From: Acrocarpospora macrocephala
GTDB lineage: Bacteria > Actinomycetota > Actinomycetes > Streptosporangiales > Streptosporangiaceae
Assembly: GCF_009687865.1 (NCBI RefSeq)
Contig: NZ_BLAE01000003.1
Span: 297,921 to 352,435, forward strand
Reading direction: 5' to 3'
DNA length: 54,515 nt
Part shown: in pieces, positions 9,669-39,261 of the stretch
Layout: every line of letters begins with the position of its first letter
How positions within the stretch are numbered: the stretch's first letter is position 1
Made by a program: the position numbers and the translations under genes
Notes under the pieces: model-generated
Databases searched by the model: none
Told to the model about the DNA's origin: nothing
What the model saw: the letters and a program-made list of their open reading frames with translations, nothing else

Positions 9669-9717
9669 TCGCCATGATCGGTCGTTCTCTGTTGTTTCGC
9701 TTGTTGGATCGCCGCGT

Positions 9718-9760
9718 GGTTCGCCGTGCGGCTTCCCGTGTGTTTCCCCGTGTGATTTCG
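9718..9760 (+). promoter_or_regulatory. PHO-box-like direct repeats upstream of phytase gene
   Basis: Three imperfect repeats, GTTCGCCGTG (9719), GCTTCCCGTG (9731) and GTTTCCCCGTG (9742), recur every 11-12 bp about 20-60 bases before the start codon. PhoP-dependent promoters in actinobacteria use 11-bp direct repeats with a GTTCACC core, so phosphate control is plausible. The match is imperfect. Confidence 0.35.
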
Positions 9761-9780
9761 GACGAGGTGGAGTGACCGCT

Positions 9781-11043: not shown

Positions 11044-11046
11044 TCC

Positions 11047-11206
11047 TCACCTGGCGAATGCGAACCCGCCTGGACGGTTGTTGTGGTCGGCGAACATGGC
11101 GATGGCGATCTCCGGCGGCGGTACGCGACCCGATGTCGAGCCCGATCGGCCGATGCACCCGGGCGATCTCCGGCACGGCGACGCCCGGTTCGGTGAGCGC
11201 CTGGAC
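11047..11206 (-). pseudogene. Fragment of an XdhC-like gene (C-terminal part)
   Basis: Read leftward, this stretch encodes EIARVHRPIGLDIGSRT and then, after a frameshift, PEIAIAM and NNRPGGFAFAR. It matches the end of the XdhC-like gene at 13780-14301. The nucleotide match is strong but not identical, and the 5' part is absent. It is a decayed partial copy. Confidence 0.75.
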
Positions 11207-11280
11207 TTCCTAACCGGGGGACTGACGGCTGAGCAGTTCAGTGATGTCTTCACTCCCACGATAAGAAATCCGGCGAAGAA

Positions 11281-22893: not shown

Positions 22894-23796
22894 TTAGTCA
22901 TCGCTCGGGGACGGCCGGGCTGGGACGTTGGCCCAGGCGGGCAAGGGTTCGCGGGAGGGCGGCCAGTGGCTTGGGAGGGGGGAGCGGGTGGCGATGATGC
23001 CGCCGACGATGGCGCAGGTGGTGTCGATGTCGCCGCCGGCGGTGGCGGTGGTCCAGAAGGCCTGTTCGTAGTTGTCGAGGTGGCGGGCGGCGGACCACAG
23101 GGTGAAGGGGACGGTGTCCTGGGCGGAGACGGCGCGTCCGTTGCCCAGGGTGTGGGCGGCCAGGACGGGGTCGGTGAGGGGGAGGAGGCGGCGGGCTTCG
23201 GTGATTCCGTCGCGGACCTGGCTGGGTGGGGTGTGGTGGAGGACCTGGTCGAGGAAGCGGCCGGGGGTGAGGTCGGGTGTCGCCGCGGCGGTGGCGGCGG
23301 CCACGGCGATGGCGACGGCGCCCGCGACGGCTTCCGGGTGGGTGTGGGTGACCTGGGCCGACGCCTTCGCCTCCCGTACGGCTCGGGCCGGGTCGCCGGC
23401 GAACCACGCGCCGAGCGGCGCCACCCGCATGGCGGCGCCGTTGCCCCACGAGCCGCTGCCGTCGAACATGCCGGTGGCCAGGGTTCGCCAGTCGCCGCCT
23501 TCGCGGACCAGGCGCAGCATGCGGTTGGTGGCGGGGCCGTACCCGCGGTCGAAATCGTGGCGCGCGGCGAAGCTCGCGGCGAGTTCGTCCTGGTCGATGG
23601 TGCCGTGGTCGGTGAGGACGCGGTGGATGGAGCAGGCCATCTCGGTGTCGTCGGTCCACTGCCAGGGTCCGGGCGGCAGGGAGCGGTCGGTGAGGGCTTG
23701 GCGGTTGGCGGGGACGTAGAACTGGGAGCCGAGTGCGTCGCCGAGGGCCAGGCCGTGCAGGGAGGCGGTCGCGCGTGATCGGGATTCGGTCAGCAT
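22894..23796 (-). CDS. ADP-ribosylglycohydrolase family protein
   Basis: This 300-residue DraG-type hydrolase has GLALGDALGSQFY near the N-terminus, the magnesium-binding WTDDTEMA, GSWGNGAAMRVAPLGAWF, and C-terminal GGDIDTTCAIVGGIIA. Such enzymes remove ADP-ribose from proteins or nucleic acids. ATG 23796 is chosen because GGAGGG lies just upstream; an earlier in-frame start would add 10 residues. It is the first gene of a likely three-gene operon with DUF4291. Confidence 0.92.
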   Translation of the reverse strand: MLTESRSRATASLHGLALGDALGSQFYVPANRQALTDRSLPPGPWQWTDDTEMACSIHRVLTDHGTIDQDELAASFAARHDFDRGYGPATNRMLRLVREGGDWRTLATGMFDGSGSWGNGAAMRVAPLGAWFAGDPARAVREAKASAQVTHTHPEAVAGAVAIAVAAATAAATPDLTPGRFLDQVLHHTPPSQVRDGITEARRLLPLTDPVLAAHTLGNGRAVSAQDTVPFTLWSAARHLDNYEQAFWTTATAGGDIDTTCAIVGGIIATRSPLPSHWPPSREPLPAWANVPARPSPSDD

Positions 23797-24281
23797 CGCC
23801 CTCCATTGTGGCACCGATCTTCCCAATCGGGTCCTTCGCGTTTAGGCCATAGCATCCGCCTGAGTCCAGCCGACACCATGTCGTGAAATTTCCTGCTAAA
23901 TCATTGAGTCGGAATAGTTACCATTCCGAGCCGGTGATCCGAATAAGGTTCTCATGCTCGGGTTGTCGCAAACATGAGCCAGTGGCAGGATGGTGGACAC
24001 CTTTGACCATGATCCCATTCTCGGAGTAAGGATTCCTTGTCATAAAAAAGGTTTCTTACCAACTCTCTCCGTAACGCAAGCTCGCCCAAATCGCGATGAT
24101 CCATATCGGTCGCCTCATCGGTCTCACCTGCCCCCGGTGCAAATTTCTTCAGGCTTATAACAATTGCACCGTTCCGGACGTTTTGCGGTGCGCCAACCCG
24201 TAGGTTCTCCCCTTGTCTGAGAAGGGCTAGTTTGCCCAGGTAAAACTGGGCATGTGGGGGCAAATCGCCCAGGAGGATCAC
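23797..24281 (+). promoter_or_regulatory. AT-richer structured leader of the polysaccharide operon
   Basis: This 485-bp gap has lower GC than its surroundings and several inverted repeats: TCGGAAT/ATTCCGA near 23910-23930, GGTGCAA (24136)/TTGCACC (24164), and GCCCAG (24234)/CTGGGC (24246). A second GCCCAG at 24267 overlaps the ribosome binding site AGGAGG of the glycosyltransferase gene, so CTGGGC can pair with either. TTTGCCC (24231) can also pair with GGGCAAA (24258). This looks like a mutually exclusive switch; the ligand is unknown and no known riboswitch class was recognised. Confidence 0.45.
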
Positions 24282-25544
24282 GTGGCGTCCGATGCAAACT
24301 GGTTTGATGCTGCCTACGAATGGTTCGTTCGCTCCAGTGCCAACGGCACCTGGCGCGACCTGATCCCCCTAGGACTGGCCGGCCTCCTCGTCTGGGGGCT
24401 GTGGCTCTACCGGGTGGTGCTGTCCCGGCTGGCCAAGCCGGTCGTGAACAGCTACCGGACCACGGTCTCCGTCGTCGTCCCGTCCTACCGGGAGGACGCC
24501 GAGATCCTGGTCCGCTGCCTGGCCAGCTGGCTGGCCCAGGATCCGTACGAAGTGATCATCGTGGTGGACGTCGGCGACACCGAATGCCACACGAAACTGC
24601 ACGAGGTGGTGGACCCCCGGCTGAAGGTCCTCATCTACGAGCACTCCGGCAAACGCTCCGCGCTGGGCGTGGGCATCCGGGCGGCCCGCGGCGAGGTCGT
24701 GGTCTTCGCCGACTCCGACACCTGGTGGCAGCCGGGCCTGCTGGCCGCCGTCCAGATGCCGTTCGAGGATCCCTCGGTCGGCGGCGTCGGCACCCAGCAG
24801 AACGTCTACCAGCGGACCAGCAGCATCTGGCGGCGCATCGCCGACTGGCTGGTCAACCTGCGCTACTACGACTACGTGCCCGCGATGGGCAGCCGGGGCG
24901 GGGTGGCCTGCCTGTCCGGCCGGACCGCCGCCTACCGGCGCGCGGCCATCCTCCCGGTGGTCCACAACCTGGAGAACGAGTTCTTCCTCGGCCGCCGGTG
25001 CATCGCCGGCGACGACGGCCGCCTGACCTGGCTGGTCCTCGCCTCCGGATACAAGACCGTGCACCAGTCCTCGGCCCGGGCCATCTCGATGTTCCCCGAC
25101 TCCTTCCGCGCCTTCGTCAAGCAGCGCGTCCGGTGGAGCCGCAACTCCTACCGGTGCTACCTGACGGCGCTGTGGAAGGGGTGGCTGTGGAAGACCCCGC
25201 TGGTCACCAAGGTCACCGTGCTGCAGATCCTGCTCACCCCGGTGACCATGGGCGTCACGCTCGCCTACCTGTTCTTCAGCAGGCTGGAGCTCACCCCGTG
25301 GGGCATCGGGCTGGCCGTCGGCTGGCTGCTGCTGGGCCGGGGCGTACGCGGCTGGTCGCACCTGCGCCGCCACCCCGCGGAGATCCTGCTGCTACCACTC
25401 CTCTGCCTGGTGGTCATCATGATCGCCCTGCCGATCAAGCTGTGGGCGTTCCTGACCATGAACAAGCAGGGCTGGCTTACCCGCACGTCCGACCAGGTAG
25501 GCGGGGCCGGCCAGAGCGCCGCCACGCTCAAGGGGATGGCCTGA
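24282..25544 (+). CDS. Processive GT2 glycosyltransferase (polysaccharide synthase)
   Basis: This 420-residue membrane synthase of hyaluronan/chitin/alginate-synthase type has one N-terminal helix (GLAGLLVWGLWLYRVVL) and a cytoplasmic GT-A domain with VVVPSYRED. DxD Asp residues lie at 144-146 (FADSDTWW), the catalytic GDD at 243-245 and the processivity motif QRVRW at 281-285. Three or four C-terminal helices complete it. It would polymerise UDP-sugars and extrude the chain. GTG 24282 follows AGGAGG at 5 bases. It heads an operon with beta-helix proteins and UGDH; the product is probably a uronate-containing polymer. Confidence 0.88.
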   Translation: MASDANWFDAAYEWFVRSSANGTWRDLIPLGLAGLLVWGLWLYRVVLSRLAKPVVNSYRTTVSVVVPSYREDAEILVRCLASWLAQDPYEVIIVVDVGDTECHTKLHEVVDPRLKVLIYEHSGKRSALGVGIRAARGEVVVFADSDTWWQPGLLAAVQMPFEDPSVGGVGTQQNVYQRTSSIWRRIADWLVNLRYYDYVPAMGSRGGVACLSGRTAAYRRAAILPVVHNLENEFFLGRRCIAGDDGRLTWLVLASGYKTVHQSSARAISMFPDSFRAFVKQRVRWSRNSYRCYLTALWKGWLWKTPLVTKVTVLQILLTPVTMGVTLAYLFFSRLELTPWGIGLAVGWLLLGRGVRGWSHLRRHPAEILLLPLLCLVVIMIALPIKLWAFLTMNKQGWLTRTSDQVGGAGQSAATLKGMA

Positions 25545-25545
25545 G

Positions 25546-27519
25546 ATGGCGCGTTTTGCCCCACTGACCCTCATCGCGGCGCTGGCGTTCGGTCTCGGTA
25601 CGGCTCCCGCCGCCGCAGCACCTCCCGCCGCCCGCGACCCGGCGCCCACCACGTTCACCGCCGACGAAGCCGAAGCCCAGGCGGCTCTGGTGGACATGGA
25701 GGACCAGCGGCTGGTCCAGACCCGCGCCGCGCTCACCGCCCTGCTGCAGACCGGCGGCATCGAGGCCGCCCAGCGCAAGCAACCCCAGGTCTTCGTCTCG
25801 TCGCACGGCCGGACGCTGGTGCTGCCCGCGCGCAACACCAATGCCCCGTACACGCTCAGGGACCTGGCGGCGGTCGAAAAGGGCCGGTACGTCCGCCAGA
25901 TGAAGGACGGCTCGGTCCTGCTCGGCATCCACGTCTTCGTGGCCGACGGCGCCCGCCTGCAGCTGCGCGGACCGCTGACGCTGCGGATGGGCAGCCTGCC
26001 CGGCTCGTTCAGCTCGATCGTCACGTTCGGCGGCAGCATCGAGATCAAGGGCACCGCCAAAAATCCGGTGCGCATCACGAGCTGGGATGTCCGTACCCAG
26101 CAACCGGACCGTTCCACGGTCGACGGGCGGGCCTACATCCGCGCGGTCGGCGGCGAGTTCGAGATGGCCTACGCGCAGGTCTCGGATCTCGGGTTCTGGA
26201 GCGGCCGCACCGGGGGCATCGCGCTCACCGGCACCGAGCGGCCGGCCAGCGCCTACCGGCACAGGACCAAGGCGCAGCGCCACCAGGACAAGGCCAAACG
26301 CCTGGCCGCCAACAACAACCCCGACAAGGGCGGCGGCAACTTCGGCGACGTGGAGACCATCCCGGTCGGCCCCGGCACCGCCTCCCACGTGCTCGCCGAC
26401 GAGCTGGTGTCCGGATCGATCAAGAACAGCGTGATCACCGGTGACGCGTTCGGGCTGTTCGTGTCCGGCTCGAACCAGACGCAGATCATCGACAACAAGA
26501 TCGTCGACAGCCTGGTGCACGGCGTGTTCATGCACCGGTTCGCCAAGAACGCCACGATCGAGAAGACCGAGGTGATCGGCAGCGGCGGTGACGGCTTCGT
26601 GCTGTCGCGGGCCACGGAGAAGGTCAGGGTCACCGACTGCCTGGCCCAGGGCAACGGCCGCAACGGCTTCACCGTCAACGGCCGGGCCCTCGCGCAGGGC
26701 CCGTCCGCGAGCGGCGAGTCGCTGGCCGTGTACGGCGACAGCTCGATCAACAGCAGCATCGCCCGCGACAACGGCCGCTACGGCATCGAGGTGCTCGGCG
26801 GCAGCCGGCTGGCCGTGCAGACCAGCGAAATCATCGGCGGCGACATGGGCATCGTGGTCCGCGAGGGCGCCAGCGGCGTGCAGATCTCCGGCAACAAGCT
26901 GACCAACCAGCGCCGCCAGGCGATCGCCCTGCGCGACGGCGCGACCGGCGCGCACGTGGCGGGCAACACCATCAAGGGCACGACCACCGGCATCTACCTG
27001 CGCGACTCCGACGGCACGGTCGTCGGAAACAAGGTCACGACGATCACGGACCCGAAGGCGCACGGCATCACCGTGGTCGGGCAGGCGGACGGGTCCGAGA
27101 TCACCCGCAACACCCTCATCGGCTCCGGCACCAGCGCGATCAGCATCGCGCGCTCCTCCGGCAAGCTGAACAAGCACAACAACGACGAGGACGGCTGGAA
27201 GGACACCTCGACGTTCTGGGTCAAGGCCAAGCGCTACGTCAAACCCATGAACGTGATCTGGGCGTGCGTCCTCCTGCTGGTCATCGTCTCGGCGATCCGG
27301 TCCCGCGGCATCATGGAGAGGCGGCGGCGCGGCAAGATCCGCGACCCGTACGAGCTGCAGAAGCCGATGGAGGAGCGGCCGCTCATGCTGCTGCGCCACG
27401 CGGCGCGGGGTCAGGACCAGTCCGAGAACACCGCGCCCGTGCCCATGCCCGGCCGGGCGAGCAGGCATCGGCCGCCGGCGCACGCGGGTTCGACCCCGAC
27501 GATCGGGGGCAGAGGATGA
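25546..27519 (+). CDS. Membrane-anchored right-handed beta-helix protein (1)
   Basis: This is a 657-residue extracellular protein with a signal peptide (LTLIAALAFGLGTAPAAAA) and a conserved N-terminal region (VDMEDQRLVQTRAALTALL; LGFWSGRTGGIAL). A long parallel beta-helix follows (repeats such as NSVITGDAFGLFVSGSNQTQ, NKIVDSLVHGVFMHRF). A C-terminal helix (MNVIWACVLLLVIVSAI) and a basic tail with DPYELQKPMEERP end it. Beta-helix enzymes of this type include alginate C5-epimerases and polysaccharide lyases, so it may modify the nascent polymer. It is a paralog of the next gene, whose ATG overlaps its stop. Confidence 0.85.
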   Translation: MARFAPLTLIAALAFGLGTAPAAAAPPAARDPAPTTFTADEAEAQAALVDMEDQRLVQTRAALTALLQTGGIEAAQRKQPQVFVSSHGRTLVLPARNTNAPYTLRDLAAVEKGRYVRQMKDGSVLLGIHVFVADGARLQLRGPLTLRMGSLPGSFSSIVTFGGSIEIKGTAKNPVRITSWDVRTQQPDRSTVDGRAYIRAVGGEFEMAYAQVSDLGFWSGRTGGIALTGTERPASAYRHRTKAQRHQDKAKRLAANNNPDKGGGNFGDVETIPVGPGTASHVLADELVSGSIKNSVITGDAFGLFVSGSNQTQIIDNKIVDSLVHGVFMHRFAKNATIEKTEVIGSGGDGFVLSRATEKVRVTDCLAQGNGRNGFTVNGRALAQGPSASGESLAVYGDSSINSSIARDNGRYGIEVLGGSRLAVQTSEIIGGDMGIVVREGASGVQISGNKLTNQRRQAIALRDGATGAHVAGNTIKGTTTGIYLRDSDGTVVGNKVTTITDPKAHGITVVGQADGSEITRNTLIGSGTSAISIARSSGKLNKHNNDEDGWKDTSTFWVKAKRYVKPMNVIWACVLLLVIVSAIRSRGIMERRRRGKIRDPYELQKPMEERPLMLLRHAARGQDQSENTAPVPMPGRASRHRPPAHAGSTPTIGGRG

Positions 27520-29453
27520 AGCGCCTGTTCCTCATCCTCATGGCGCTGACCCTGTCCGCGGTCGGCACCTGGGCGTACCTGTCCTACATCGACCGCCCGC
27601 CGCCGACGCCGGGCGTCAACGAGGTGTCCGCGGCGGATGCGCAGCAGCAGTCGACCCTGGTCGACCAGGAGGATTTGCGGATCATGCAGACTCGGGCCAC
27701 GCTGTCCTCCGCGATGGCGCGGGGCGGTCCGGCCGCCGCGGCCGCCCGGGTGCCGCACATCTCCAGTTCGGCCAATGGCCGGACGCTGGTGCTGCCGCAG
27801 CGGCGTGAGCCGTACCGGGTGGCGGACCTGGAGAAGCTGGGTGGCGAGGAGTTCCAGAAGCAGGACGACAATTCGTACGTGCTGGGCATCAACGTGTTCC
27901 TCGGCCCGGGATCCAAACTGGTGCTCCAGAACGCGACCGGGCCGCTGGTGATCCGGATGCGCAGCGAGCCCGGCACCTTCGTGTCGATCGTGAGCTTCGG
28001 CGCGAGCATCCGCATCAACGGATCGGCCCAGAACCCGGTCCGGCTCAGCAGCTGGGACACCCACACCAGGACGGTGGACACCAAGGTCGCCGACGGGCGG
28101 GCCTACCTGCGCGCGGTCGGCGGGGAGCTCAAGATGAGCTACGCCATGGTCGAGCATCTCGGCTTCTGGAGCGGCCCGACCGGCGGGGTGGCCATGACCG
28201 GCAGCGACCGGCCCAGCCAGACCGCCAAGCGTCAGCTGCCTCCCACGCTCCCGGCGGGCACCGTCACCCCCACGGTCTCGCCCACGCCCACGCCCACCGC
28301 CGCGGGGGAGCGGCAGTCGAAGGTGCTCATGCCCAACGGCCAGCTCGTGCCGAGCGACGGCGGCGACGACGAGATCGTGGTCACCGACGGCACGGGCGGC
28401 GGGAAGGCCACCTTCCAGCTGCCGGAGGCCAACCTGGTCACCGGCGACATCACCGACACCACGATCACGGGCAACGCGTACGGGATCTTCATCACGGCCT
28501 CCAACGAGACCAGGATCACCAACGTCAGGGTGAGCGGCAGCCTGGTCGACGGCGTGCTGCTGCACCGGTTCGCCCGCAACGCCACCATCGAGAACACCAC
28601 CGTGAGCAACAGCCGAGGCGACGGGTTCGTGCTGTCCCGGGGCACCCAGAACGTCACGATCACCGGGTCCACGTCCGAGCACAACGCCGGCAACGGCTTC
28701 ACCATCAGCGGCCTGCCGCTGGCCCGGGGTCCGTCGGCGTCGGGGGAGTCGCTGCGCAGCTTCGGCGGCAGCTCGGTGACCAGCAGCGTGGCCCGGGAGA
28801 ACGGGCGCTACGGTGTGGAGATCCAGGGCGGGGTCAAGCTGGCCGTACAGACCAGCGAGGTGATCGGCGGAGAGATGGGCATCGTGGTGAGCCAGGACGC
28901 CACCGGGGTGCAGGTCTCCGGCAACCGGCTCACCGGCCAGCGCATCCAGGGGATCGCGCTCCGCGACGGCGTGCGGTCGGCCCGGGTCAGCGGCAACATC
29001 GTCCGCGACACCGCGACCGCGATCTTCCTCAGGGACGCCGAGGCCACCATCTCCGGCAACACGGTCCAGTCCGCGTCCCTGCACGCGATCTCCCTGCTGG
29101 GCAACGCCGACGGCACCAAGATCACCGGAAACACCCTGGGCGGCGCGGGCCGCAGCGCCATCGACAGCAGCCGGGCGAAGGGCATCGAGACCCCCACGGC
29201 CAACAACGTCGACGGCTGGCAGGACACGGCCGGGTTCTGGACGATGGTGAAGCGGATCGCCAAGCCGATGAACATCATCTGGTTCGCGGTGATCGCGCTG
29301 ATCGTGATCTCGGCCCTGCGGGCCATGCGCGGTGACGGCCCGCGGGTCGGCCGCAGAATCGTCCATCCGTACGAGAAGCAGACACTGCTGGAGGAGCGGC
29401 CGGCGCAGGTCCTGAGGACCGCCACCGCCCGCACTCCGGCGGGGAGGAGCTGA
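27516..29453 (+). CDS. Membrane-anchored right-handed beta-helix protein (2)
   Basis: This 645-residue paralog of the preceding protein has an N-terminal signal/anchor (LFLILMALTLSAVGTWAYL) and a matching N-terminal region (VDQEDLRIMQTRATLSSAM; LGFWSGPTGGVAM). A Thr/Pro linker, a beta-helix (NAYGIFITASNETRITNVRV, DGVLLHRFARNATIENTTV), a C-terminal helix (MNIIWFAVIALIVISAL) and the tail HPYEKQTLLEERP follow. The shared architecture, C-terminal helix and tail imply the two proteins work together, perhaps as a hetero-oligomeric epimerase or lyase at the outer face. ATG 27516 overlaps the previous stop. Confidence 0.85.
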   Translation: MKRLFLILMALTLSAVGTWAYLSYIDRPPPTPGVNEVSAADAQQQSTLVDQEDLRIMQTRATLSSAMARGGPAAAAARVPHISSSANGRTLVLPQRREPYRVADLEKLGGEEFQKQDDNSYVLGINVFLGPGSKLVLQNATGPLVIRMRSEPGTFVSIVSFGASIRINGSAQNPVRLSSWDTHTRTVDTKVADGRAYLRAVGGELKMSYAMVEHLGFWSGPTGGVAMTGSDRPSQTAKRQLPPTLPAGTVTPTVSPTPTPTAAGERQSKVLMPNGQLVPSDGGDDEIVVTDGTGGGKATFQLPEANLVTGDITDTTITGNAYGIFITASNETRITNVRVSGSLVDGVLLHRFARNATIENTTVSNSRGDGFVLSRGTQNVTITGSTSEHNAGNGFTISGLPLARGPSASGESLRSFGGSSVTSSVARENGRYGVEIQGGVKLAVQTSEVIGGEMGIVVSQDATGVQVSGNRLTGQRIQGIALRDGVRSARVSGNIVRDTATAIFLRDAEATISGNTVQSASLHAISLLGNADGTKITGNTLGGAGRSAIDSSRAKGIETPTANNVDGWQDTAGFWTMVKRIAKPMNIIWFAVIALIVISALRAMRGDGPRVGRRIVHPYEKQTLLEERPAQVLRTATARTPAGRS

Positions 29454-29456
29454 GCG

Positions 29457-30626
29457 ATGCGCCTGGACATCGACAGAAAGACCCTGGTGGGAATGCTGGC
29501 CGGGGCCGTCATCACGGTGATCATCGTGGTGCTGGTACGCGGGATTTTCGGCGGCTCCAGCGAGCCGAGCATGCAAGTTGAGGACATTCATCCGCAAAGC
29601 GGTGGAACGACCGACTCCTCCCAAACGTCCCAGGTACCACAGGAATCGCAGGTGGAGGACCAAGAGGAGGATGACGTGGAACCGTTCGTTGCCCTGCAAC
29701 AGCCCCCCGCCATCCCCGTCCCCACCGGCGAGGGAACGATCGACTGCCCGGAGGCCACGGTGACCGTCACCGACGCCGCCGGCCTCGCCGAGGCGATCGA
29801 GGCGGCCGAACCCGGCACCGTGATCAAGCTGGAGCCCGGCGTGTACGCGGGCCGCTTCGTGGCCACGGTCCCCGGCACCGAATCCGACCCGATCTTCGTC
29901 TGCGGCTCGCCCGAGGCGATCATCGACGGCGGCGGCGTCAAGAAGGGCTACGCCTTCCACCTCAACGAGGTCAGCCACTGGCGGCTGATCGGCTTCACGG
30001 TCCGCAACAGCCAGAAGGGCGTGATGGCCGACAAGACCAGCCACACGATCATCCAGGGCCTGACCGTGCACCACATCGGCGACGAAGCCATCCACCTGCG
30101 CAACTTCAGCAGCGACAACATCGTCCAGTACAACATGATCTACGCCACCGGCCTGCGCCGGGAGAAGTTCGGCGAGGGCGTCTACCTCGGCACCGCCGAG
30201 AGCAACTGGGCGACCTTCTCCGGCGGCCAGATGGACCGCAGCGACCGCAACCTCGTGCGCGGCAACGTCATCAGGGCCACCGCCGAGGCGATCGACATCA
30301 AGGAAGGCACCTCCGACGGCCGCGTCGTCGGCAACATCTTCGACGGCTCCGTCCTCGGCGGTTCCAAGCACAACGACTCCTGGGTCGACGTCAAGGGCAA
30401 CGGCTACGTCATCGAGGCCAACACCGGCAGCAACACCAACGCGGACGGCTTCCAGACCCACAAGATCGTGGACGGCTGGGGCACCGGCAACGTGTTCCGC
30501 GCCAACATCATCGATCTCGGCAACTCCGGCGGATACGGCGTCAACGACACCGTCGGCGGAAACACCATCGCCTGCGACAACAAGGTCACCGGCGGCACGC
30601 TCGTCAAAAAGGGCAGCTGTTCCTGA
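29457..30626 (+). CDS. N-terminally anchored beta-helix protein, lyase-like
   Basis: The 389-residue protein has one N-terminal transmembrane helix (MLAGAVITVIIVVLVRG), a Gln/Ser/acidic stalk and a beta-helix domain beginning TVTDAAGLAEAIEAAEPGTV. Further signatures are IKLEPGVYAGRF, CGSPEAIIDGGG, WRLIGFTVRNSQKGVM and DDAIHL-like GDEAIHLRN. This resembles PL6/chondroitinase-B or pectate-lyase-type folds and is distinct from the two preceding proteins. The family acts on uronate polymers, so it could trim the polysaccharide. The catalytic residues cannot be assigned by eye. It starts four bases after the previous stop. Confidence 0.82.
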   Translation: MRLDIDRKTLVGMLAGAVITVIIVVLVRGIFGGSSEPSMQVEDIHPQSGGTTDSSQTSQVPQESQVEDQEEDDVEPFVALQQPPAIPVPTGEGTIDCPEATVTVTDAAGLAEAIEAAEPGTVIKLEPGVYAGRFVATVPGTESDPIFVCGSPEAIIDGGGVKKGYAFHLNEVSHWRLIGFTVRNSQKGVMADKTSHTIIQGLTVHHIGDEAIHLRNFSSDNIVQYNMIYATGLRREKFGEGVYLGTAESNWATFSGGQMDRSDRNLVRGNVIRATAEAIDIKEGTSDGRVVGNIFDGSVLGGSKHNDSWVDVKGNGYVIEANTGSNTNADGFQTHKIVDGWGTGNVFRANIIDLGNSGGYGVNDTVGGNTIACDNKVTGGTLVKKGSCS

Positions 30627-30664
30627 GCACCGAGCTCAACCACACGCGAAAGGAAAGTACAGAC

Positions 30665-31996
30665 ATGAGCGACGCCGCACTCCCACGGCTGACGGTCATC
30701 GGAACCGGCTACCTCGGGGCGACGCACGCCATCTGCATGGCGTCACTGGGCTACGAGGTGGTAGGCCTCGACGTGGACGCCAACAAGATCAAGAAATTGC
30801 AGTCCGGCGAAGTGCCGTTCTTCGAGCCCGGACTGCCCGAACTGCTGGCCAAGACCATGGAATCCGGCCGGCTCCGCTTCACCACCTCCTACGAGGAGGC
30901 CGCCGCCCACGGCGACGTGCACTTCATCTGCGTCGGCACCCCCCAGCAGCCCGGCTCCGACGCCTGCGACCTCACCTACGTCGACGCCACCGTCCGCGCC
31001 CTGGCCGCCCGCCTGACCCGCCGCTGCCTGGTCGTCGGCAAGTCGACCGTCCCCGTCGGCACGGCCGCCCGGCTCGGCGACATGCTCCGCGAGCTGGCCC
31101 CCGCCGGGGACGAGGTCGAACTGGCCTGGAACCCCGAGTTCCTGCGCGAAGGCTTCGCCGTCGACGACACCCTGCGCCCCGACCGCCTCGTCTTCGGCGT
31201 CGCCTCCGACTGGGCCCGCGACCAGCTCACCGCGGCCTTCCGGCCGATCCTCGACCTGGGGACCCCCACCGTCGTCACCGACCTGTCCACCGCCGAACTC
31301 GTCAAGGTGGCCGCCAACTCCTTCCTGGCCACCAAGATCTCCTACATCAACGCGATGGCCGAGGTCTGCGAGGCCACCGGCGCCGACGTACGCGACCTGG
31401 CCAAGGCCCTCGCCTACGACGACCGCATCGGCGGCCGCTTCCTCCAGCCCGGCCTCGGCTTCGGCGGCGGCTGCCTGCCCAAGGACATCCGCGCCTTCGC
31501 CCACCGCGCCGAGGAGATCGGCGTCGGCCAGGCCGTCTCCTTCCTCCGCGAAGTCGACGCCATCAACCGCCGCCGCCGCTCTCGTACCATCGACCTGGTC
31601 AGGGAACTCCTCGGCGGCCAGCTCGACGGCAAGCGCGTCGCCTGCCTGGGCGCGGCCTTCAAGCCCAACTCCGACGACATCCGCGACGCCCCCGCCCTGG
31701 ACGTGGCCCGCACCATGCACGGCCTGGGCGCGAACGTCCGTGTCTACGACCCTGCGGCTCTCGACAACGCCCGCCGCGCGTACCCCGAACTCAGGTACGG
31801 CACCAGCGCTCTCGACGTGGCCCAGGACGCGGACGTGGTGGTGCTGCTGACCGAATGGGCCGAGTTCCGGGAGATTCAGCCGTCCGCGCTGGCGCAGGTG
31901 GTCCGGAACCGCCGGATCGTGGACGGCCGCCATGCTCTGGACGCGGAGGCCTGGCGCGCCGAGGGCTGGGAGTACCGCGCTCTGGGCCGCCCCTAG
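30665..31996 (+). CDS. ugd: UDP-glucose 6-dehydrogenase
   Basis: This 443-residue cytosolic enzyme oxidises UDP-glucose to UDP-glucuronate using NAD+. The Rossmann loop GTGYLG runs 13-18, the catalytic Cys270 lies in FGGGCLPKD, and C-terminal GKRVACLGAAFKPNSDDIRD is typical of UDP-Glc/GDP-Man dehydrogenases. It ends the synthase/beta-helix operon (38 bp after the previous gene) and should supply the uronate precursor. The stop abuts the stop of the convergent regulator gene with no gap. A near-identical copy of its last ~440 bp lies at 48933-49376. Confidence 0.93.
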   Translation: MSDAALPRLTVIGTGYLGATHAICMASLGYEVVGLDVDANKIKKLQSGEVPFFEPGLPELLAKTMESGRLRFTTSYEEAAAHGDVHFICVGTPQQPGSDACDLTYVDATVRALAARLTRRCLVVGKSTVPVGTAARLGDMLRELAPAGDEVELAWNPEFLREGFAVDDTLRPDRLVFGVASDWARDQLTAAFRPILDLGTPTVVTDLSTAELVKVAANSFLATKISYINAMAEVCEATGADVRDLAKALAYDDRIGGRFLQPGLGFGGGCLPKDIRAFAHRAEEIGVGQAVSFLREVDAINRRRRSRTIDLVRELLGGQLDGKRVACLGAAFKPNSDDIRDAPALDVARTMHGLGANVRVYDPAALDNARRAYPELRYGTSALDVAQDADVVVLLTEWAEFREIQPSALAQVVRNRRIVDGRHALDAEAWRAEGWEYRALGRP

Positions 31997-34900
31997 TCAC
32001 CCGCAGGTGGCGTGGTACGGCTCGACCGGGAGGTAGGTGCTCCACTCCGCGTACGGCAGGTCGCGGCCTACCTCCCGGCAGATCCGCGCCCTGGCGGCGT
32101 CGGCCGACAGCGACCAGCGGATCACCTTTCCGTCGTCGCCGCCGGAGAGCAGGTCGCCGCCCGAGGTGAAGGCCAGGGCGCGTACGGGTGCGTCGTGGCC
32201 GGTCAGCACGGCGACGCGGGTCCAGGTGGCGGTGTCCCACACGCTGATCGTGTGGTCGTCGCCCGCCGCGGCCAGGAAACGCCCGTTCCGGCTGAAGGCG
32301 ACCACCTGGACGGAGGCGGTGTGCCCGGTCAGGGTGGCCACGGCCGTACCCGACCGGACGTTCCAGATCTTCACCGTCCGATCGGCTCCGGCGGTGGCGG
32401 CCAGCTTGCCGTCGGGGCTGAGGCTGACGTCGCGCACCTCGCCCTGGCCGGTGGCCCAGTCGAGCAGCCGGGTGTCGGTGGCGGTGTCCCAGACCAGGAC
32501 GCTGCCCGCCGGGCTGCCGGAGACGAGCAGCCGCCCGTCCCGGCTGTACTCCAGCGTGGTCGCGATGTACGGCAGGCCGGGAATCGGCCGTTCCGACATC
32601 GCGGGGGTGTCCCAGCGGAACCGCCCCTGGGAGGCGGTGGCGACGGAGCGGCCGTCCGGATGGTGGGCGATGTCCGTGGAGGCGGCCAGGCCCGCGTACG
32701 GGACGGTGGCGATCCGGCGCCGGAGGGCCACGTCCCAGACGACGATGGTGTGGTCGCGGGTGAGGGCGAGGAGGCGTTCGCCGCCGGGGCTGAAGGCGAT
32801 CGCCTGCACGTGGTCGGAGTGGTCGGCGAGAACGGCCAGTGGTGTTCCGTCCTGGTCCCAGAGGCGGACGGTGCCGTCCGATCCCGCGCTGGCGGTGAGC
32901 AATCCGTCGGAGCTGGTCTCGATGTCGTTGACGGCTCCGCTGTGGCCGATGAAGGGCGGCACGGCGTGCTCGCGGATCACGATGGTGCGGCCGAGCCCGG
33001 CGGAGGCGAGGGCGGCGCCGTCCCGGCTCAACGCCACCGAGCGGGCCTCGGCGCGGCCCCGATCCTGGTAGGTGGCGAGCGGCAGCCGCCGCGCCACATC
33101 CCAGATGGTGATATATCCGTATTCGTTGGCGACGGCGATTCTGCCGTTGGCGGGAGCGGAGACCACCCAGGCGAGCGCTTCCTGCGCGGGGATGTCGCCG
33201 AGCGCCTTCACCTTGCTCGCCCCGACGTCCCAGAAGTGCACGCCGCCATCGGTGGTGCTGGTGGCGAGGCGGCCGGTCCCGGCGTCGAAGTCGACGGTGT
33301 GCGCCCCGGGCGCGGGGACGGTGGTGACGCGCTCGCCGGTGGCGGCGCCCCACACGATCGGCTCGCCCTTCCCGTCGGCGGAGACGAGCAGCCGCCGGTC
33401 GGGGCTGAACGCCAGGGAGAGGACCTCGTGCCCGGTCGTGAGGGTCCGGCGGTGCTGCCCGCCGATGTCGCGGACCTCGATCCCGGTGTCCGTGCCGACC
33501 GCGACCGTGGTCCCGTCGGAGCTGAAGGCCAGCGCGCCGCTCAGCCGGTCGTACGCCTGCTTGAACAGGGCCCGGCGGGCGCGCACGTCCCAGACGATCA
33601 GCGATCCGGCGCTGGGCCCGATGGCGGCGGCGCTGGCGACCGAGGCCAGCAGGGTGGAGTCGGCGCTGAAGGCCACGTCCCTGGCGTAGTGGTCCACACC
33701 GTCGGCGTGGCCGGTGAGGCTGGCCAGGAGGGTGCGGCGGGCGGGGTCCCACAGGCCGATGGTCCCGTCCCGCCCCGCTGAGGCGGCCAGCTTGCCGTCG
33801 GGGCTCAGCGCGATGTCGAAGACCGGCGTGCCGCCGGTGTTGAGGTCGATCCGCCGCCGGGCCACGGCGGCGGCGCTCAGCATCGCGCCCAGGGTCTGCG
33901 GGTCGGGGCGCAGGCGGTGGGCCTCGACGGCCAGCAGCCCGGCCGTGTCGGGGTCGGTGGCCAGCAGCTGCCGGGAGGTGAGGGCGAGCTGGTGGGAGCT
34001 TTCGACGAGCTGCCGCAGCCGGGCCTCCCCGCCCTGCCGTACGGCGGTGACGGCGCCCGCGATCGCGAGCACCAGCATGACGGCCAGTCCGGCGGCCAGG
34101 CGTTTGAACAGGCGGGTTCGGCGTGCCGAGGCCAGGCGTTCGGTGTCGGCGAGGGCGCGTCCCGCCGCGAGGAAGGCGGCTTCGCGCTGGTTCAGCTCCT
34201 GCGGGTTCTCCTCGGCCCAGCTTCCCGCGGTGAGCAGCCGCAGGCCCCGGTAGAGGACGCCGGGGTCGCGGCCGAGCTCCGCCCAGGTGCGGGCGTCCTC
34301 GGTGAGCCGCCGGTGCGCCAGCAGGTCGGCCCGGTCGTCGGTGAGCCAGCGGTGCAGCCGGGGCCAGGCTCGGATGAGCGCCTCGTGCGCCACCTCGACC
34401 CGGTCGGCCGCCAGGACGATCAGGCGGGCCGCCGCGAGGGCGTCCAGGACGCCGTCGACGGCCTCGGGGTCGGCGATGCCGTCGAGTTCGGCCCGGTCCA
34501 CGGGCCTGCGGGTGTCGTCGGTGCCCTCGCCGAGCGCGGTGAGCCGCAGGAAGATCCGGCGCGCGATCCGGCGTCCGGTGTCGTCGAGCAGGTCGTACTC
34601 GCGTTCCGCGGTCTGCGCGATGGCGCCGCGCACGCCGCCGCCGGCCTGGTAGGCGGCCAGGCTGAGGGCGGTTCCGGTGCGGTTCCGCCAGGTCTCCAGC
34701 AGGGCGTGGGACAGCAGCGGCAGCGAGCCGGGTGCTGTGCCGGTCTCGGCCACGATCGTGGCGAGCAGTTCGGCGTCCACGGTCAGCCCGGCCCGCGCGG
34801 CCGGACCTGTGATCATCTCGCGCAGGTCGGCGAGCGCGGGCGGGCCGATGAGCAGGGTCGCCTCGTCCGCCAGCGCCGCCACCAGGTCCGCGTGCCGGGA

Positions 34901-36199
34901 CAGCTGGGCCAGGAAGTCGGCGCGCACGCCCTGTACTACGGTGGTGCGCCGGTCGGGTCCGAGGGCGGCGTCGAGCAGGGCCCGGATGAACAGGTCGCGT
35001 TCCGCGGGGTCGGCGCAGAGGGTGAAGACCTCTTCGAACTGGTCCACCACCAGCAGCACCCGGGTCTCCGGCGGGCCAGGGGCCATCGCGTTCCTGAGGG
35101 CGATGTCCAGCTGGGACGGGTCGCGCGCCAGATCCTCGCGCAGCCGGTCGGCGTCCAGGTCGGCCAGCTTGGCGACCTGCCTGGCCAGCGCCTCCAGCGG
35201 GCGGTCGCCCGGTGTCATCAGCAAGGTCTGCCAGCGCGGATCCCGGCTGGCCGGACCGAGCAGCCCGGCCCGCAGCAGCGAGGACTTGCCGCTGCCCGAC
35301 GCGCCGAGCACGCTCACGATCGGCAGCCGCCCGACCCGGTCGAGCAGCCGTTCGGCCGCCTGGGCGCGGCCGAAGAACCACTCCTCCTGCTCGGGCCCGA
35401 ACGCCCGCATGCCCTGGAACGGCGGCTGCGTCCCGGCGGTCACGGCCACCTGGCGAGATCGCTGCGGGGCGGCGAGCCGCCGGTCGCCGCGCAGCACCGC
35501 CTCGTGCAGCCGCCGCAGCTCCAGGCCCGGTTCGACGCCGAGCTGGTCGGCCAGCAGCGCCCTGGTCCGCCGGAAGACCTCCAGCGCCTCGGCCTGACGG
35601 CCGGACCGGTAGAGGGCGACCATGAGGTGCCCGCGGATCGACTCCCGGAAGGGGAACGTTTCCGTCATCGCCGTCAGTTCGGCGACGACGTCGGCATGGC
35701 GGCCCAGCTTCAGGTCGGCCAGCACCCGATCCTCGCCGGCGCGCAGCCGGGACTCCTCCAGTTTGAGCGCCGCCTGCCTGATCACCGGCGTCTCGGCGAG
35801 GTCGCCGTAGGCGGGGCCGCGCCACAGGGCCAGCGCCCGGTCCAGCAGGTCGCGGGCGGCGGCCGGGTCCTCGGCCAGCGCCGCGGCGGCCACGTCCCGG
35901 TCGAACCGGTCCGCGTCGAGCTCGCCGGGCCCGACCCTGATCGAGTAGCCGTACGTGTCGCGGGTGATGCGCTCCCCGTCCCAGAGGGTGCGGCGCAGCT
36001 GGTGGACGTACAGCCGCAGGTTCTCCGCCGCTGAGGCCGGTGGTCGTTCCCACAGCGCCTCGGCCAGCCGCGCGCGCGGGACAGGCGTGTTGGCCTGGCT
36101 CACCAGCACGCCCAGCAGGATCCGCTGCTTGGTCGATCGCAGCGGGAGCGCGGCCCCGTCGATTTCCACGGCAAGCGGGCCGAGCACGCGGAACTCCAC
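31997..36199 (-). CDS. SARP-nSTAND1-TM-WD40 signalling regulator (AfsR-like)
   Basis: This 1400-residue multidomain regulator has an N-terminal OmpR-type winged helix (MEFRVLGPLAVEIDG, LRLYVHQLRRTLWDG) and a BTAD domain (about 96-245). An nSTAND1 NTPase follows, with Walker A GASGSGKSS at 299-307 and VLLVVDQFEEVFTLC. A transmembrane helix (LAAGLAVMLVLAIAGAVTAV, about 700-720) precedes WD40 repeats (about 770-1390; DIALSPDGKLAASAGRDGTIGLWD-type units). The helix separates the DNA-binding half from the beta-propellers, so a membrane sensor is plausible. It diverges from the DNRLRE/RHS genes and may regulate them. Confidence 0.9.
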   Translation of the reverse strand: MEFRVLGPLAVEIDGAALPLRSTKQRILLGVLVSQANTPVPRARLAEALWERPPASAAENLRLYVHQLRRTLWDGERITRDTYGYSIRVGPGELDADRFDRDVAAAALAEDPAAARDLLDRALALWRGPAYGDLAETPVIRQAALKLEESRLRAGEDRVLADLKLGRHADVVAELTAMTETFPFRESIRGHLMVALYRSGRQAEALEVFRRTRALLADQLGVEPGLELRRLHEAVLRGDRRLAAPQRSRQVAVTAGTQPPFQGMRAFGPEQEEWFFGRAQAAERLLDRVGRLPIVSVLGASGSGKSSLLRAGLLGPASRDPRWQTLLMTPGDRPLEALARQVAKLADLDADRLREDLARDPSQLDIALRNAMAPGPPETRVLLVVDQFEEVFTLCADPAERDLFIRALLDAALGPDRRTTVVQGVRADFLAQLSRHADLVAALADEATLLIGPPALADLREMITGPAARAGLTVDAELLATIVAETGTAPGSLPLLSHALLETWRNRTGTALSLAAYQAGGGVRGAIAQTAEREYDLLDDTGRRIARRIFLRLTALGEGTDDTRRPVDRAELDGIADPEAVDGVLDALAAARLIVLAADRVEVAHEALIRAWPRLHRWLTDDRADLLAHRRLTEDARTWAELGRDPGVLYRGLRLLTAGSWAEENPQELNQREAAFLAAGRALADTERLASARRTRLFKRLAAGLAVMLVLAIAGAVTAVRQGGEARLRQLVESSHQLALTSRQLLATDPDTAGLLAVEAHRLRPDPQTLGAMLSAAAVARRRIDLNTGGTPVFDIALSPDGKLAASAGRDGTIGLWDPARRTLLASLTGHADGVDHYARDVAFSADSTLLASVASAAAIGPSAGSLIVWDVRARRALFKQAYDRLSGALAFSSDGTTVAVGTDTGIEVRDIGGQHRRTLTTGHEVLSLAFSPDRRLLVSADGKGEPIVWGAATGERVTTVPAPGAHTVDFDAGTGRLATSTTDGGVHFWDVGASKVKALGDIPAQEALAWVVSAPANGRIAVANEYGYITIWDVARRLPLATYQDRGRAEARSVALSRDGAALASAGLGRTIVIREHAVPPFIGHSGAVNDIETSSDGLLTASAGSDGTVRLWDQDGTPLAVLADHSDHVQAIAFSPGGERLLALTRDHTIVVWDVALRRRIATVPYAGLAASTDIAHHPDGRSVATASQGRFRWDTPAMSERPIPGLPYIATTLEYSRDGRLLVSGSPAGSVLVWDTATDTRLLDWATGQGEVRDVSLSPDGKLAATAGADRTVKIWNVRSGTAVATLTGHTASVQVVAFSRNGRFLAAAGDDHTISVWDTATWTRVAVLTGHDAPVRALAFTSGGDLLSGGDDGKVIRWSLSADAARARICREVGRDLPYAEWSTYLPVEPYHATCG

Positions 36200-36348
36200 T
36201 GTGGTTCCCCCGTCGTCGATTTCCAGCGTCGCCGCACGTTATCGAGCCAATGTACGCCCGACAAGAGTCGATATACGGCCTATATACGCCTCCTCCACGC
36301 CCGCCTCCACAAACTGATCCCCGCATGTCACGACTACGGGGAGCACCT
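36200..36348. promoter_or_regulatory. Divergent promoter region with TATACG repeats
   Basis: Between the SARP regulator and the DNRLRE protein gene lie two imperfect 10-bp direct repeats, ATATACGGCC (36271) and TATATACGCC (36281), in a locally AT-rich patch. SARPs bind direct repeats, so these could be operator sites as well as a -10 region. GGGGAG precedes the ATG at 36349. Confidence 0.35.
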
Positions 36349-39231
36349 ATGAGATTGGCGAAGGCGGCGTGCGCGAGCGCGCTCGGGCTGCTGCTGGCGG
36401 GGACCGGCGCACCGCCGATCATGGCCCAGACGGCCGCCGCGACCGTGCTGGCGGACGAGACGCGGAAGTTCACCGGCGTCCGCCAGCACTGGAACGTGCT
36501 GCGGAAGCAGTTCGGCAACAACAGCTACTACGACAAGGCGACGATCGAGTCCGACGACACGACCAGGGGAACGCTGCGCGCCGGTCACAACTCCGACGGC
36601 GGCGGCACCACCGCCAGGACCATCCTGCAGCTGGACACCTCCCGGGTGGCCAGGACCCACATCCTGTGGGCCAAGCTGCGCCTCTGGCAGGCGTGGTCGT
36701 CCAAGGACTGCGGCAACGGCAACGAGTCCGGCGGGGCGGTGGACGTCTACCAGGTGCCCGCCTTCAACTCCGGCACGACCTGGAACGCGACCTGGAACAC
36801 GACCGCGTGGGCCACCAACCTGGGCGGCAACAGCAAGGCCGTGCGCCGCTACGGAGGCGGCTACCAGGGCCGCTGCCCAGATGACTGGGTGGCCTTCGAC
36901 GTCACCGGCGCGGTCCGCAAGGTCGCGGAGGCGGGCGACACGTCGATCTCGCTCGGGCTCAGGGCCGAGAACGAGAGCGACGAGTACAGCTGGAAGCGTT
37001 ACCTGATATTCGGGGGCGCCAACGGCAAGAACCCCAACCTGGACATCGGCTACAACACCCTCCCGGCCGCTCCCGCCGCCCTGGTCACCGATGACGACTC
37101 CGCGCCCGGTGACGCCACCGACGACGCGGTGTGCGTGGCCGGCCCCGCCCGCCCGGCGATCACCTCGGCGACGCCGAAGCTGAGCGCCAAGATGATCGAC
37201 GGCGACGGATCCACGCACGCCGAGTTCGAATGGTCGGAGGTCGGCGTCGGCCGGATCGGCGGGACGACGACGGGCCTGGTCGCCGATGGCGCCAACGCGA
37301 GCGCCACCATCCCCGCCGGTACGTTCCAGGAAGGGCACACCTACTCCTGGCGGGTCCGCGGATACGACCTGCTCGGCGCGTACGGCACCGACAACGGCGC
37401 CTGGTCGCGCGCCTGCGAGTTCACCGTCGAGACCCCGGGCCCGGCCAACAGCCCGCCGCTCCCGTCGATCAGCTCCACCGACTTCGCCAGGGACGACTTC
37501 GGCCCCACCGCGATCGGCGTGCCCGGCAAGGTCACGTTCTCGGGCACCGACGTGGTCGCCTTCCGGTACGGCTTCCGCCAGGACGCCCTGGCCATGACGG
37601 TCCCGGCCAGGCCGGACGGCACCGCCGAAGTGCCGATCACCATGTGGCACGGCGACCCGGCCGAACTGTGGGTCCAGGCCGTGGACCGGGCCGGGAACAA
37701 GAGCGTCGGCCCGGACGGCGACCCCGCCTCCGGCATCGCCCGCTACCCGTTCCAGGCGGTCGACGGCAGCGGCCAGATCCCGCACGAGCGCGGCGACCTC
37801 AACGGCGACGGCGGCGCCGACCTCACCGTGCTGACCGACGGCGACCGGGGCCGCGCCCAGGTGTGGAACCTGACCGGTGCGAGCCCGGTCAACGTGTTCG
37901 ACGCGGGCGCCTTCCCGCTGGACAAGGTGAAGAGCGCCGCCGGTGACTTCGACGGGGACGGCCGGACCGATCTGGCGATGTTCCGTGACGAGGGCGGCGG
38001 CCGTACCACCCTGCACCTGCTGGCTTCGGACGGCAACGCGCTGACCGGAACCCAGGTGTGGGAGTCGGCCACCTGGGACTGGGCCAAGACGAAGGTCGTG
38101 GCGGGCAACTTCGACGGCGACGAGGCGAAGCGCGACGACCTGGCCGTCATGTACGACCTGGGCGGTGCCACGCTGGACCTGCGCGTCTTCCTCGGCACCG
38201 GCGACGGATTCGCCGCGCCCGCCGCGTGGGGGAGCGCCGCCAGGGACGCCACCAAGATCAAGCTCGTCGCGGGTGACTTCGACGGGGACGGCGCCCACGA
38301 CCTCGCCGAGATCAGGGATCTGGGCAGCAGGATCGGCATCTACATCCTGCCCTCCACCCGCTCGTCCTTCGCCGCCCCCGCCACCTGGTACGACGACCCG
38401 AGCCGTGGCTGGAGCTGGGCCAAGACCAAGCTGGTCGGCGCCGACGTGACCGGGGACGGCCGCGCGGAGATCGCCGCCTTCTACCGGTACAGCGAAGCCA
38501 ATCAAACCTCCCTCTACCTGTTCGCCAACACGGGCACCGGATTCGTCCCCCCGCCCACGATCCCGCTCTGGCAGTCCGGCGACCACTCCTGGAACTGGCA
38601 CCTCGTCGAGCCCACGGCCGGGGACCTGGACGGCGACAACGACGAGGACCTGATCGTCGACTACGCCTGCTGCGGATCGGCGCAGCACGTGCTGTGGCGG
38701 TTCACCGCCGCCGCAGGCACGGTGGCGGCTCCGCAGCAGTACTGGCGCGGCGCGTTGAGCACCACCGGCAGGTCCGGGGTCGAGGTCGACCCGGCCGCGA
38801 CCTACCAGCTGGTGGCCTCCCACTCGGGCCGGTGCGTGGCCGTCGCCAACGCCGGCACCGCCGACAACGCGGCCATGATCCAGTACGACTGCCCTGGCGG
38901 CGCCAACCAGCGATTCCGGGTGGTGGCCACCGGAGCCGCCCAGTTCATGCTGCAACCGGCCCACGTCACCGGCAAGTGCGTGACCGCCGGAGCCTCCTCC
39001 GCTCCCGGCACGAAGGCCGTCCAGTACACGTGCGCGGCGCCGTCGGGCGACCAGGCGTACCGGCTCGAATACGTGGCCGGTTCCGGCGACGACACCCTGG
39101 TGCGGCTGCGGCCGATGCACTCCGGCAACTGCCTGGACGTGGCGGGCGCGAACCTGCTCAACAACGCGCTGATCCACCAGTGGGCCTGCCTGAACACCCC
39201 GAACCAAGAGTTCTACCTGCGCCGATCCTGA
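36349..39231 (+). CDS. Secreted DNRLRE / FG-GAP / ricin-lectin protein
   Basis: The 960-residue secreted protein starts at ATG 36349 (GGGGAG upstream). After a signal peptide come a DNRLRE-type domain (about 35-235: LQLDTSRVARTHILWAKLRL, DWVAFDVTGAVRKVAEAG), a fibronectin-like region and at least six FG-GAP calcium loops (DLNGDGGADL, DFDGDGRTDL, DFDGDGAHDL, DLDGDNDEDL). A C-terminal ricin-type beta-trefoil (about 860-960, with NQRF, DQAY and NQEF repeats) ends it. Such modules bind sugars and decorate cell surfaces. It is followed by the RHS toxin gene after 30 bp, so it may help present or target it. Confidence 0.85.
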   Translation: MRLAKAACASALGLLLAGTGAPPIMAQTAAATVLADETRKFTGVRQHWNVLRKQFGNNSYYDKATIESDDTTRGTLRAGHNSDGGGTTARTILQLDTSRVARTHILWAKLRLWQAWSSKDCGNGNESGGAVDVYQVPAFNSGTTWNATWNTTAWATNLGGNSKAVRRYGGGYQGRCPDDWVAFDVTGAVRKVAEAGDTSISLGLRAENESDEYSWKRYLIFGGANGKNPNLDIGYNTLPAAPAALVTDDDSAPGDATDDAVCVAGPARPAITSATPKLSAKMIDGDGSTHAEFEWSEVGVGRIGGTTTGLVADGANASATIPAGTFQEGHTYSWRVRGYDLLGAYGTDNGAWSRACEFTVETPGPANSPPLPSISSTDFARDDFGPTAIGVPGKVTFSGTDVVAFRYGFRQDALAMTVPARPDGTAEVPITMWHGDPAELWVQAVDRAGNKSVGPDGDPASGIARYPFQAVDGSGQIPHERGDLNGDGGADLTVLTDGDRGRAQVWNLTGASPVNVFDAGAFPLDKVKSAAGDFDGDGRTDLAMFRDEGGGRTTLHLLASDGNALTGTQVWESATWDWAKTKVVAGNFDGDEAKRDDLAVMYDLGGATLDLRVFLGTGDGFAAPAAWGSAARDATKIKLVAGDFDGDGAHDLAEIRDLGSRIGIYILPSTRSSFAAPATWYDDPSRGWSWAKTKLVGADVTGDGRAEIAAFYRYSEANQTSLYLFANTGTGFVPPPTIPLWQSGDHSWNWHLVEPTAGDLDGDNDEDLIVDYACCGSAQHVLWRFTAAAGTVAAPQQYWRGALSTTGRSGVEVDPAATYQLVASHSGRCVAVANAGTADNAAMIQYDCPGGANQRFRVVATGAAQFMLQPAHVTGKCVTAGASSAPGTKAVQYTCAAPSGDQAYRLEYVAGSGDDTLVRLRPMHSGNCLDVAGANLLNNALIHQWACLNTPNQEFYLRRS

Positions 39232-39261
39232 CGCGAGCACCGAAACTCCAGGAGAAATCAC

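Follow-up and report, generated by a model that had tools for sequence, protein, structure and literature searches.

A candidate uronan synthase-epimerase-lyase gene unit conserved across Actinomycetota

In a 54,515-nucleotide stretch of the 12.1 Mb genome of Acrocarpospora macrocephala (assembly GCF_009687865.1, contig NZ_BLAE01000003.1, positions 297,921 to 352,435; hereafter the window), five genes follow one another on the plus strand in the order GT2-BH1-BH2-PL31-UGDH, with successive gaps of 1, -4, 3 and 38 nt. They encode a GT2 synthase, two beta-helix proteins (BH1 and BH2), a putative PL31-type lyase and an enzyme of the UDP-glucose 6-dehydrogenase type (UGDH). This five-gene unit is old and conserved, and it is widespread in Actinomycetota, including many soil actinomycetes. 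We consider it probable that the unit encodes a membrane-anchored system at the surface of actinomycetes that synthesizes, epimerizes and cleaves a uronan, probably a glucuronan. This proposal is built on computed gene content, gene order, conservation, remote homology, residue conservation and a natural gene fusion, from which we infer the donor sugar, the linkage, the topology, the epimerase and lyase activities and the order of events. The original prediction, made from the letters of the window, had described five tightly spaced genes on one strand, which is borne out here, and had proposed a uronate-polymer unit analogous to alginate or hyaluronan systems with an architecture of its own. 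From that proposal we retain a unit for synthesis and modification that includes anchored beta-helix enzymes, but it is not confined to this genome. A search of the literature by titles and the openings of abstracts, with subscription papers mostly outside its scope, returned no published description of the five-gene cluster, and the unit appears to be undescribed as a system.

Conservation of the gene order

A contig search with the synthase alignment alone, from which the best 80 of 239 relatives were kept and which leans to close relatives, yielded 80 named loci. In 79 of these the gene following that of the synthase encodes a BH protein, and in the 80th (L123 of Actinomadura sp. CNU-125, positions 7950-11423, plus strand) a GT2 and a BH protein of the main clade share one frame of 1158 amino acids (aa), which may represent a fusion or a sequence error. 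The original prediction had been staked on synthase and beta-helix genes lying side by side in homologs, as they are found to do. A lyase gene is present in all 69 named loci with at least 5 kb available after the GT2 gene, and a UGDH gene is adjacent in 63 of them.

Similar results were obtained from searches of genomes, the counts of which are lower bounds, as at most three candidates per genome were scored in the class sample and at most five in the phylum sample. In the class sample, a BH match at 1e-10 was found in at least 30 of 394 genomes, the window genome included. A set of 32 loci found through their BH proteins in 31 genomes (three of the genus of the window; genome G371 was left out) contains a GT2 gene in 31 loci, with the BH gene directly next to it in every one of the 31, while L078 has a BH gene without a GT2 gene. 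Where these loci have room, a downstream lyase gene on the same strand is present in 26 of 29 and a UGDH gene in 23 of 29, divergent copies included; 11 of the latter are downstream on the same strand, and one (L072) is a weak match of 136 bits. The carriers include Streptomyces, Actinomadura, Actinoplanes, Kribbella, Arthrobacter and other genera. As a side observation, a record titled Vibrio cholerae strain 35D (L163) holds a copy of the actinobacterial operon whose BH protein groups with that of Arthrobacter cheniae (L161), and is probably a mislabelled or contaminated assembly.

The unit extends beyond the class. A synthase search of 296 genomes across the phylum gave at least four genomes with matches at E <=1e-90, i.e. 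the window genome and three of other classes. Two of the latter (L179 and L180) have the order GT2-BH-PL31, and L180 has a UGDH gene as well. The gene order is thus found again in many families, and also in other classes of this phylum, which indicates that the five-gene arrangement is more than chance. In the third locus (L181, 9320-11764, minus strand), a single frame of 814 aa, P0009, joins an AlgG-type beta-helix to a synthase of the operon's family. The helix part carries the motif YGIDPHT, i.e. a canonical DPH, and matches NF038177, the model of the AlgG mannuronan 5-epimerase, at 4.4e-25 with 88.3 bits (the cut-off of the model being 700 bits), and the synthase part scores 481 bits. The gene before P0009 encodes an NDP-sugar dehydrogenase, and the 18 kb examined around the fusion yielded no PL31 gene. 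In this protein an AlgG-type helix is physically tied to a synthase of the operon's family, which makes it our strongest link to AlgG.

The synthase, the dehydrogenase and the lyase

The synthase gene (24252-25544, plus strand; the likely start is the GTG at 24282, with AGGAGG just upstream at 24271-24276) encodes a protein of 430 aa of the processive NodC/hyaluronan-synthase kind. It matches PF13641 at 2.5e-30, and its best structure matches are hyaluronan synthases, at 1.3e-19 with the sequence alone and at 6e-28 with the family profile. The motif set of the hyaluronan synthases, i.e. DxD, GDD, QxxRW and the W-x-TR gate, aligns in full. The 11 positions that we checked (Asp109, both Asp of DxD, Arg224, both Asp of GDD, the Gln, Arg and Trp of QxxRW, and the Trp and Arg of the gate) are invariant in all 105 aligned homologs, and the Thr of the gate is kept in 31 of 31. 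Identity to the window copy is 55-99% among members (31 sequences). Assignment as a NodC chitooligosaccharide synthase was tried and rejected, as the score with TIGR04242 was 142 bits and the cut-off is 550.

These similarities raise the question of a heteropolymer, in which the same machine would make a hyaluronan-like chain of glucuronate and N-acetylglucosamine, or a chain of glucuronate and glucose as in the pneumococcal type 3 capsule, with the BH proteins and the lyase acting on its uronates. The closeness of the GT2 to hyaluronan synthase structures and NodC speaks for this, as does the pairing of a synthase with a UGDH, which is known from the has and type 3 capsule operons; like hasA-hasB and the type 3 locus, the unit combines a single processive GT2 with a UGDH. 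No epimerase or lyase partner is known to us from those operons. On the other hand, the AlgG-type helix of the P0009 fusion does not fit a heteropolymer well. Furthermore, the Arg at position 224 is invariant (105 of 105) where two aligned hyaluronan synthases and the aligned NodC have Pro, so that their GP is an invariant GR here; our guess is that this Arg binds a carboxylate. The PL31 enzymes of the literature, as far as the available excerpts describe them, act on homopolymeric uronans. We therefore regard a heteropolymer as unlikely.

The UGDH gene (30665-31996, plus strand), the candidate source of UDP-glucuronate, encodes a protein with all three domains PF03721, PF00984 and PF03720. 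Its best structure match is a UDP-glucose dehydrogenase (4a7p, 1.6e-98), it scores 425.7 bits with TIGR03026, and the leading NCBIfam equivalogs are TuaD and AglM, both under their cut-offs. The structure matches at E <=1e-60 were UDP-glucose dehydrogenases plus a sugar dehydrogenase of unspecified kind, none of them named as a GDP-mannose dehydrogenase (AlgD).

The third beta-helix protein (29457-30626, plus strand) has, by hydropathy, a hydrophobic segment at its N-terminus only, which would serve as an anchor (29475-29564), and its sequence identifies it as a PL31-type lyase with predicted lyase activity. It matches the structure of PsAly of Paenibacillus (6KFN) at 1.4e-44 alone and at 3.5e-69 with the family profile, and PsAly is classed as PL31 in the available excerpt of a published report (PMC8618178). 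The available part of another report (PMC6796002) names as active-site or first-site residues of PsAly the catalytic pair Tyr184 and Lys221, the cation ligands Glu181, Glu216 and Asp219, and further Lys128, His154, Arg156, Asp250 and Lys252. All of them are invariant in 109 of 109 lyase homologs except Asp250 (108 of 109); the catalytic Tyr and Lys correspond to Y243 and K282 of the operon lyase (109 of 109), which thus possesses the catalytic pair, the cation ligands and the other active-site residues. The PL31 family is reported, in excerpts, to include both alginate lyases and beta-1,4-glucuronan lyases, and a relative of a GH5-PL31 enzyme is described in part of a report as having both activities (PMC13235733), so that cleavage of the very polymer that the operon UGDH would feed is on record for the family. 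The operon lyase resembles PsAly in sequence family and in the named residues, and differs from it in being membrane-anchored and in its place in a synthase operon, where its substrate is probably self-made. Tandem PL31 pairs were also seen inside the operon in seven Actinomadura loci (L103, L108, L112, L115, L117, L120 and L121).

Since PL31 enzymes are described in the literature excerpts as degrading ones, the helix genes and the lyase might serve in degrading uronans of foreign origin, their place beside the synthase gene being incidental. The gene overlaps, the order shared over families, the membrane anchors and the fusion all argue against this, and so do the flanking genes: among 914 of them, found with a simple gene caller and clustered over 107 loci, no family was common to the lineages, the widest being present in 24 loci. 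We find this explanation highly improbable.

The beta-helix pair and AlgG-type epimerases

BH1 (25546-27519, plus strand; PF13229 at 1.9e-23) and BH2 (27516-29453, plus strand), the start of which overlaps the BH1 stop by 4 nt (ATGA), are 46-49% identical. According to hydropathy, both have hydrophobic segments at the N-terminus and the C-terminus, those of BH1 covering residues 4-22 and 563-591. The C-terminal segment (27232-27318 in BH1, 29253-29333 in BH2; both plus strand) is followed by a tail, basic in BH1, that contains D-P-Y in BH1 and H-P-Y in BH2. Of 152 BH rows, in which some genomes are counted twice, 142 have such a segment and 132 an H/D/N-P-Y tail; this conserved tail may be in contact with the synthase.

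A quick maximum-likelihood tree of 139 BH rows places 39 BH1 rows in one clade and 34 BH2 rows in its sister clade (SH-aLRT 98 and 100), Thermomonosporaceae and Streptosporangiaceae occurring in both; the deep branching order is unsure because of long branches. At least two BH frames are present in 34 of the 40 named loci L084-L123, L085 having three with its BH2 interrupted. A single frame was found in five, four of which lie at the end of the available DNA and the fifth of which is L104 of Actinomadura craniellae, whose BH protein falls outside both clades; L123, with its BH in frame with the GT2, is the remaining locus. All 40 named loci L124-L163, on the other hand, have a single BH gene, and two copies are the rule in Streptosporangiales. 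One duplication at the base of Streptosporangiales fits the pair.

Profile comparisons relate the BH proteins remotely to C5-epimerases of the AlgG type. A profile built from 38 BH homologs matched AlgG first (4OZY, 9.7e-14, positions 99-406), followed by AlgE6, AlgE4 and two more mannuronan 5-epimerase sequences, with NosD appearing later at 1.2e-4, and the first eight structure matches were all mannuronan C5-epimerases. After removal of the outlier loci L070, L072, L074 and L078, the 34-row profile still placed AlgG first (2.2e-9) in an unchanged register. Individually, 15 of the 38 members match NF038177 at E <=0.01 (best 1.1e-12), window BH1 not being among them, and neither BH1 nor BH2 reaches the cut-off of that model. 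Assignment of BH1 and BH2 as NosD was also tried and rejected (26.8 and 36.2 bits with TIGR04247 against a cut-off of 300).

The His of the AlgG motif DPHD is thought to abstract the proton, and an Arg has a role as well, according to the part of a review that was available (PMC4444821). In the register shared by the 38-row and 34-row alignments, on which these assignments rest, the His aligns with His330 of BH1 (codon 26533-26535) and the Arg of the AlgG 'SR' coil with Arg355 (codon 26608-26610), both on the plus strand. We take the AlgG Arg in question to be that of the 'SR' coil, and the AlgG numbering to be H319 and R345. The His is kept in 135 of 139 BH rows and the Arg in 137, and both are present in all 73 Streptosporangiales rows of BH1 and BH2. 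A canonical site, YGFDPH...SR, occurs in L074, where the helix gene adjoins a partial synthase gene of the operon's family. The BH proteins are thus like AlgG and AlgE in their beta-helix family, in the active-site His and, for AlgG, the Arg, with the full DPH motif in L074 and P0009. They differ from these enzymes in an extra N-terminal region, in the C-terminal membrane segment with its H/D/N-P-Y tail, and in lacking the Asp-Pro and the Tyr in 37 of 38 rows.

The original prediction is supported in part. BH1 and BH2 are paralogs that are tethered C-terminally according to hydropathy, and of the folds it had proposed for comparison AlgG is the one to which profiles relate them, together with AlgE, and not PL6 or chondroitinase B. 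The third beta-helix protein is distinct from the pair, as stated, although its type is a known one, PL31. The two-paralog architecture, for which no standard actinobacterial system was known there, proves to be the rule in one order and is replaced by a single gene in the L124-L163 loci.

Several results weigh against the proposed uronan system. A profile of 14 close BH proteins matched AlgE6 first (1.5e-6) and AlgG at 0.6 in a different register; BH1 and BH2 themselves have no match to NF038177 at E 0.1; and 35 of the 38 members are also weak NosD matches. The Asp-Pro of DPHD is kept in one of 38 rows, and the Tyr five positions before the His likewise in that row alone, both in L074, so that the activity of the BH proteins may be changed or absent. 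The fusion is known from one genome, and the dehydrogenase encoded before it has no match to the C-terminal domain. UGDH is missing from the stretch examined in six of the 69 named loci (five of Catellatospora and that of Streptomyces inusitatus), and no adjacent copy is present in six of the 29 BH-found loci with room. Finally, PsAly, the characterized relative of the lyase, prefers polymannuronate according to the available part of its report (PMC6796002).

The altered site and the weak or absent individual matches to AlgG would also suit a reading in which BH1 and BH2 are catalytically dead or changed scaffolds that hold or guide the chain, the rest of the machine standing as proposed; this reading overlaps with those concerning the polymer. 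The near-invariance of the His and the Arg, and the loci with a complete DPH motif, which are in the equivalent position or joined to the synthase, lead us to think it rather doubtful. The preference of PsAly and the resemblance of the BH proteins to AlgG, on the other hand, would suit a mannuronan or alginate made by another route, with mannose-type nucleotide sugars as donors and the BH proteins making guluronate as AlgG does. This appears very unlikely, as the dehydrogenase is of the UDP-glucose type. The synthase, moreover, scores to NodC and hyaluronan synthases, which use UDP-sugars.

The proposed system, its phages and its neighbours

In the alginate operon of Pseudomonas and Azotobacter, algD, alg8, algG and algL are found together. 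The actinobacterial unit is similar in bringing a sugar-nucleotide dehydrogenase, a processive GT2, a protein of the beta-helix C5-epimerase type and a lyase into one operon. It differs in that its dehydrogenase is of the UDP-glucose type, its synthase is like NodC and hyaluronan synthases, PL31 takes the place of AlgL's family, the helix proteins are membrane-tethered, and genes for outer-membrane export are not among the five. PilZ (PF07238, the Alg44 domain) has no match in the window genome, whereas five of 14 control genomes have one. Given the type of the dehydrogenase and the absence of a PilZ match, the unit would work like the alginate operon without being one.

In the uronan system that we propose, UGDH would make UDP-glucuronate. 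The GT2 would polymerize it, the product being most probably a beta-1,4-linked glucuronan, and export the chain through a membrane channel of its own. BH1 and BH2 would be fixed to the outer membrane face by their C-terminal segments, with the conserved tail inside, and would epimerize uronates at C5 on the emerging chain, converting glucuronate to L-iduronate if the chain is a glucuronan. The anchored lyase would cut the chain by beta-elimination and so set its length, or release or clear it. A more specific and tentative possibility, to which we give somewhat less than even credence, is that many actinomycetes make a surface iduronan, i.e. a beta-1,4-glucuronate homopolymer partly converted to L-iduronate by a synthase-coupled, AlgG-derived enzyme, and that their phages carry PL31 enzymes against it. 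To our knowledge, this class of polymer is not known from Gram-positive bacteria.

PL31 genes were found in phage-like contexts. On contig C6 of the window genome, a prophage-like module with genes for portal, head morphogenesis, scaffold and major head proteins (a head-tail adaptor match ranked below two unknown families) includes a PL31 gene (L083, 9191-10195, minus strand). Its product is 46-49% identical to the operon lyase, has the same active-site residues and a start like a signal peptide, and is possibly a phage depolymerase or a moron directed against the polymer. PL31 relatives are encoded in seven of 70 candidate stretches, on presumably viral contigs of a viral collection (L168, L169 and L170 among them); in L170 the PL31 gene follows an endolysin gene, and in L169 ~6 kb separate it from a gene that matches virion proteins. 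A tblastn search of 50,697 named phage records with the operon lyase gave no match. PL31 genes borne by phages suggest that phages encounter the polymer at the surface of the cell. The window genome has a further PL31 paralog (L082, 9926-11041, minus strand; 64% identical), relatives of which occupy other positions in sister genomes; the surrounding 19.5 kb gave no match to any of the other four operon proteins.

In the window, a divergent gene on the minus strand (from 22894 to about 23796-23826) bounds the unit on the left, and a convergent one (31997-36199, minus strand) bounds it on the right; judged by eye from the first residues, the product of the latter looks SARP/AfsR-like. The first 450 bases of 23797-31996 contain no operon gene and, beyond the start of the minus-strand gene, are leader; a scan for promoters and terminators gave nothing above shuffled sequences. 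Further on, a lectin/FG-GAP protein and then an RHS protein of 2186 aa with a pretoxin-HINT domain are encoded at 36040-45822. Two similar divergent gene pairs at 47462-48633 and 52642-53747, whose small minus-strand proteins are nearly identical at the start (first residues compared), are probably a local duplication.

If the proposal is true, the unit would supply the genes for making bacterial glucuronan and would be a self-contained analogue of the alginate machine in Gram-positive bacteria. Glycosaminoglycan chemistry would have an interest in an enzymatic route to glucuronan or iduronate polymers, and the natural fusion would make the coupling of synthesis and epimerization testable in one polypeptide.

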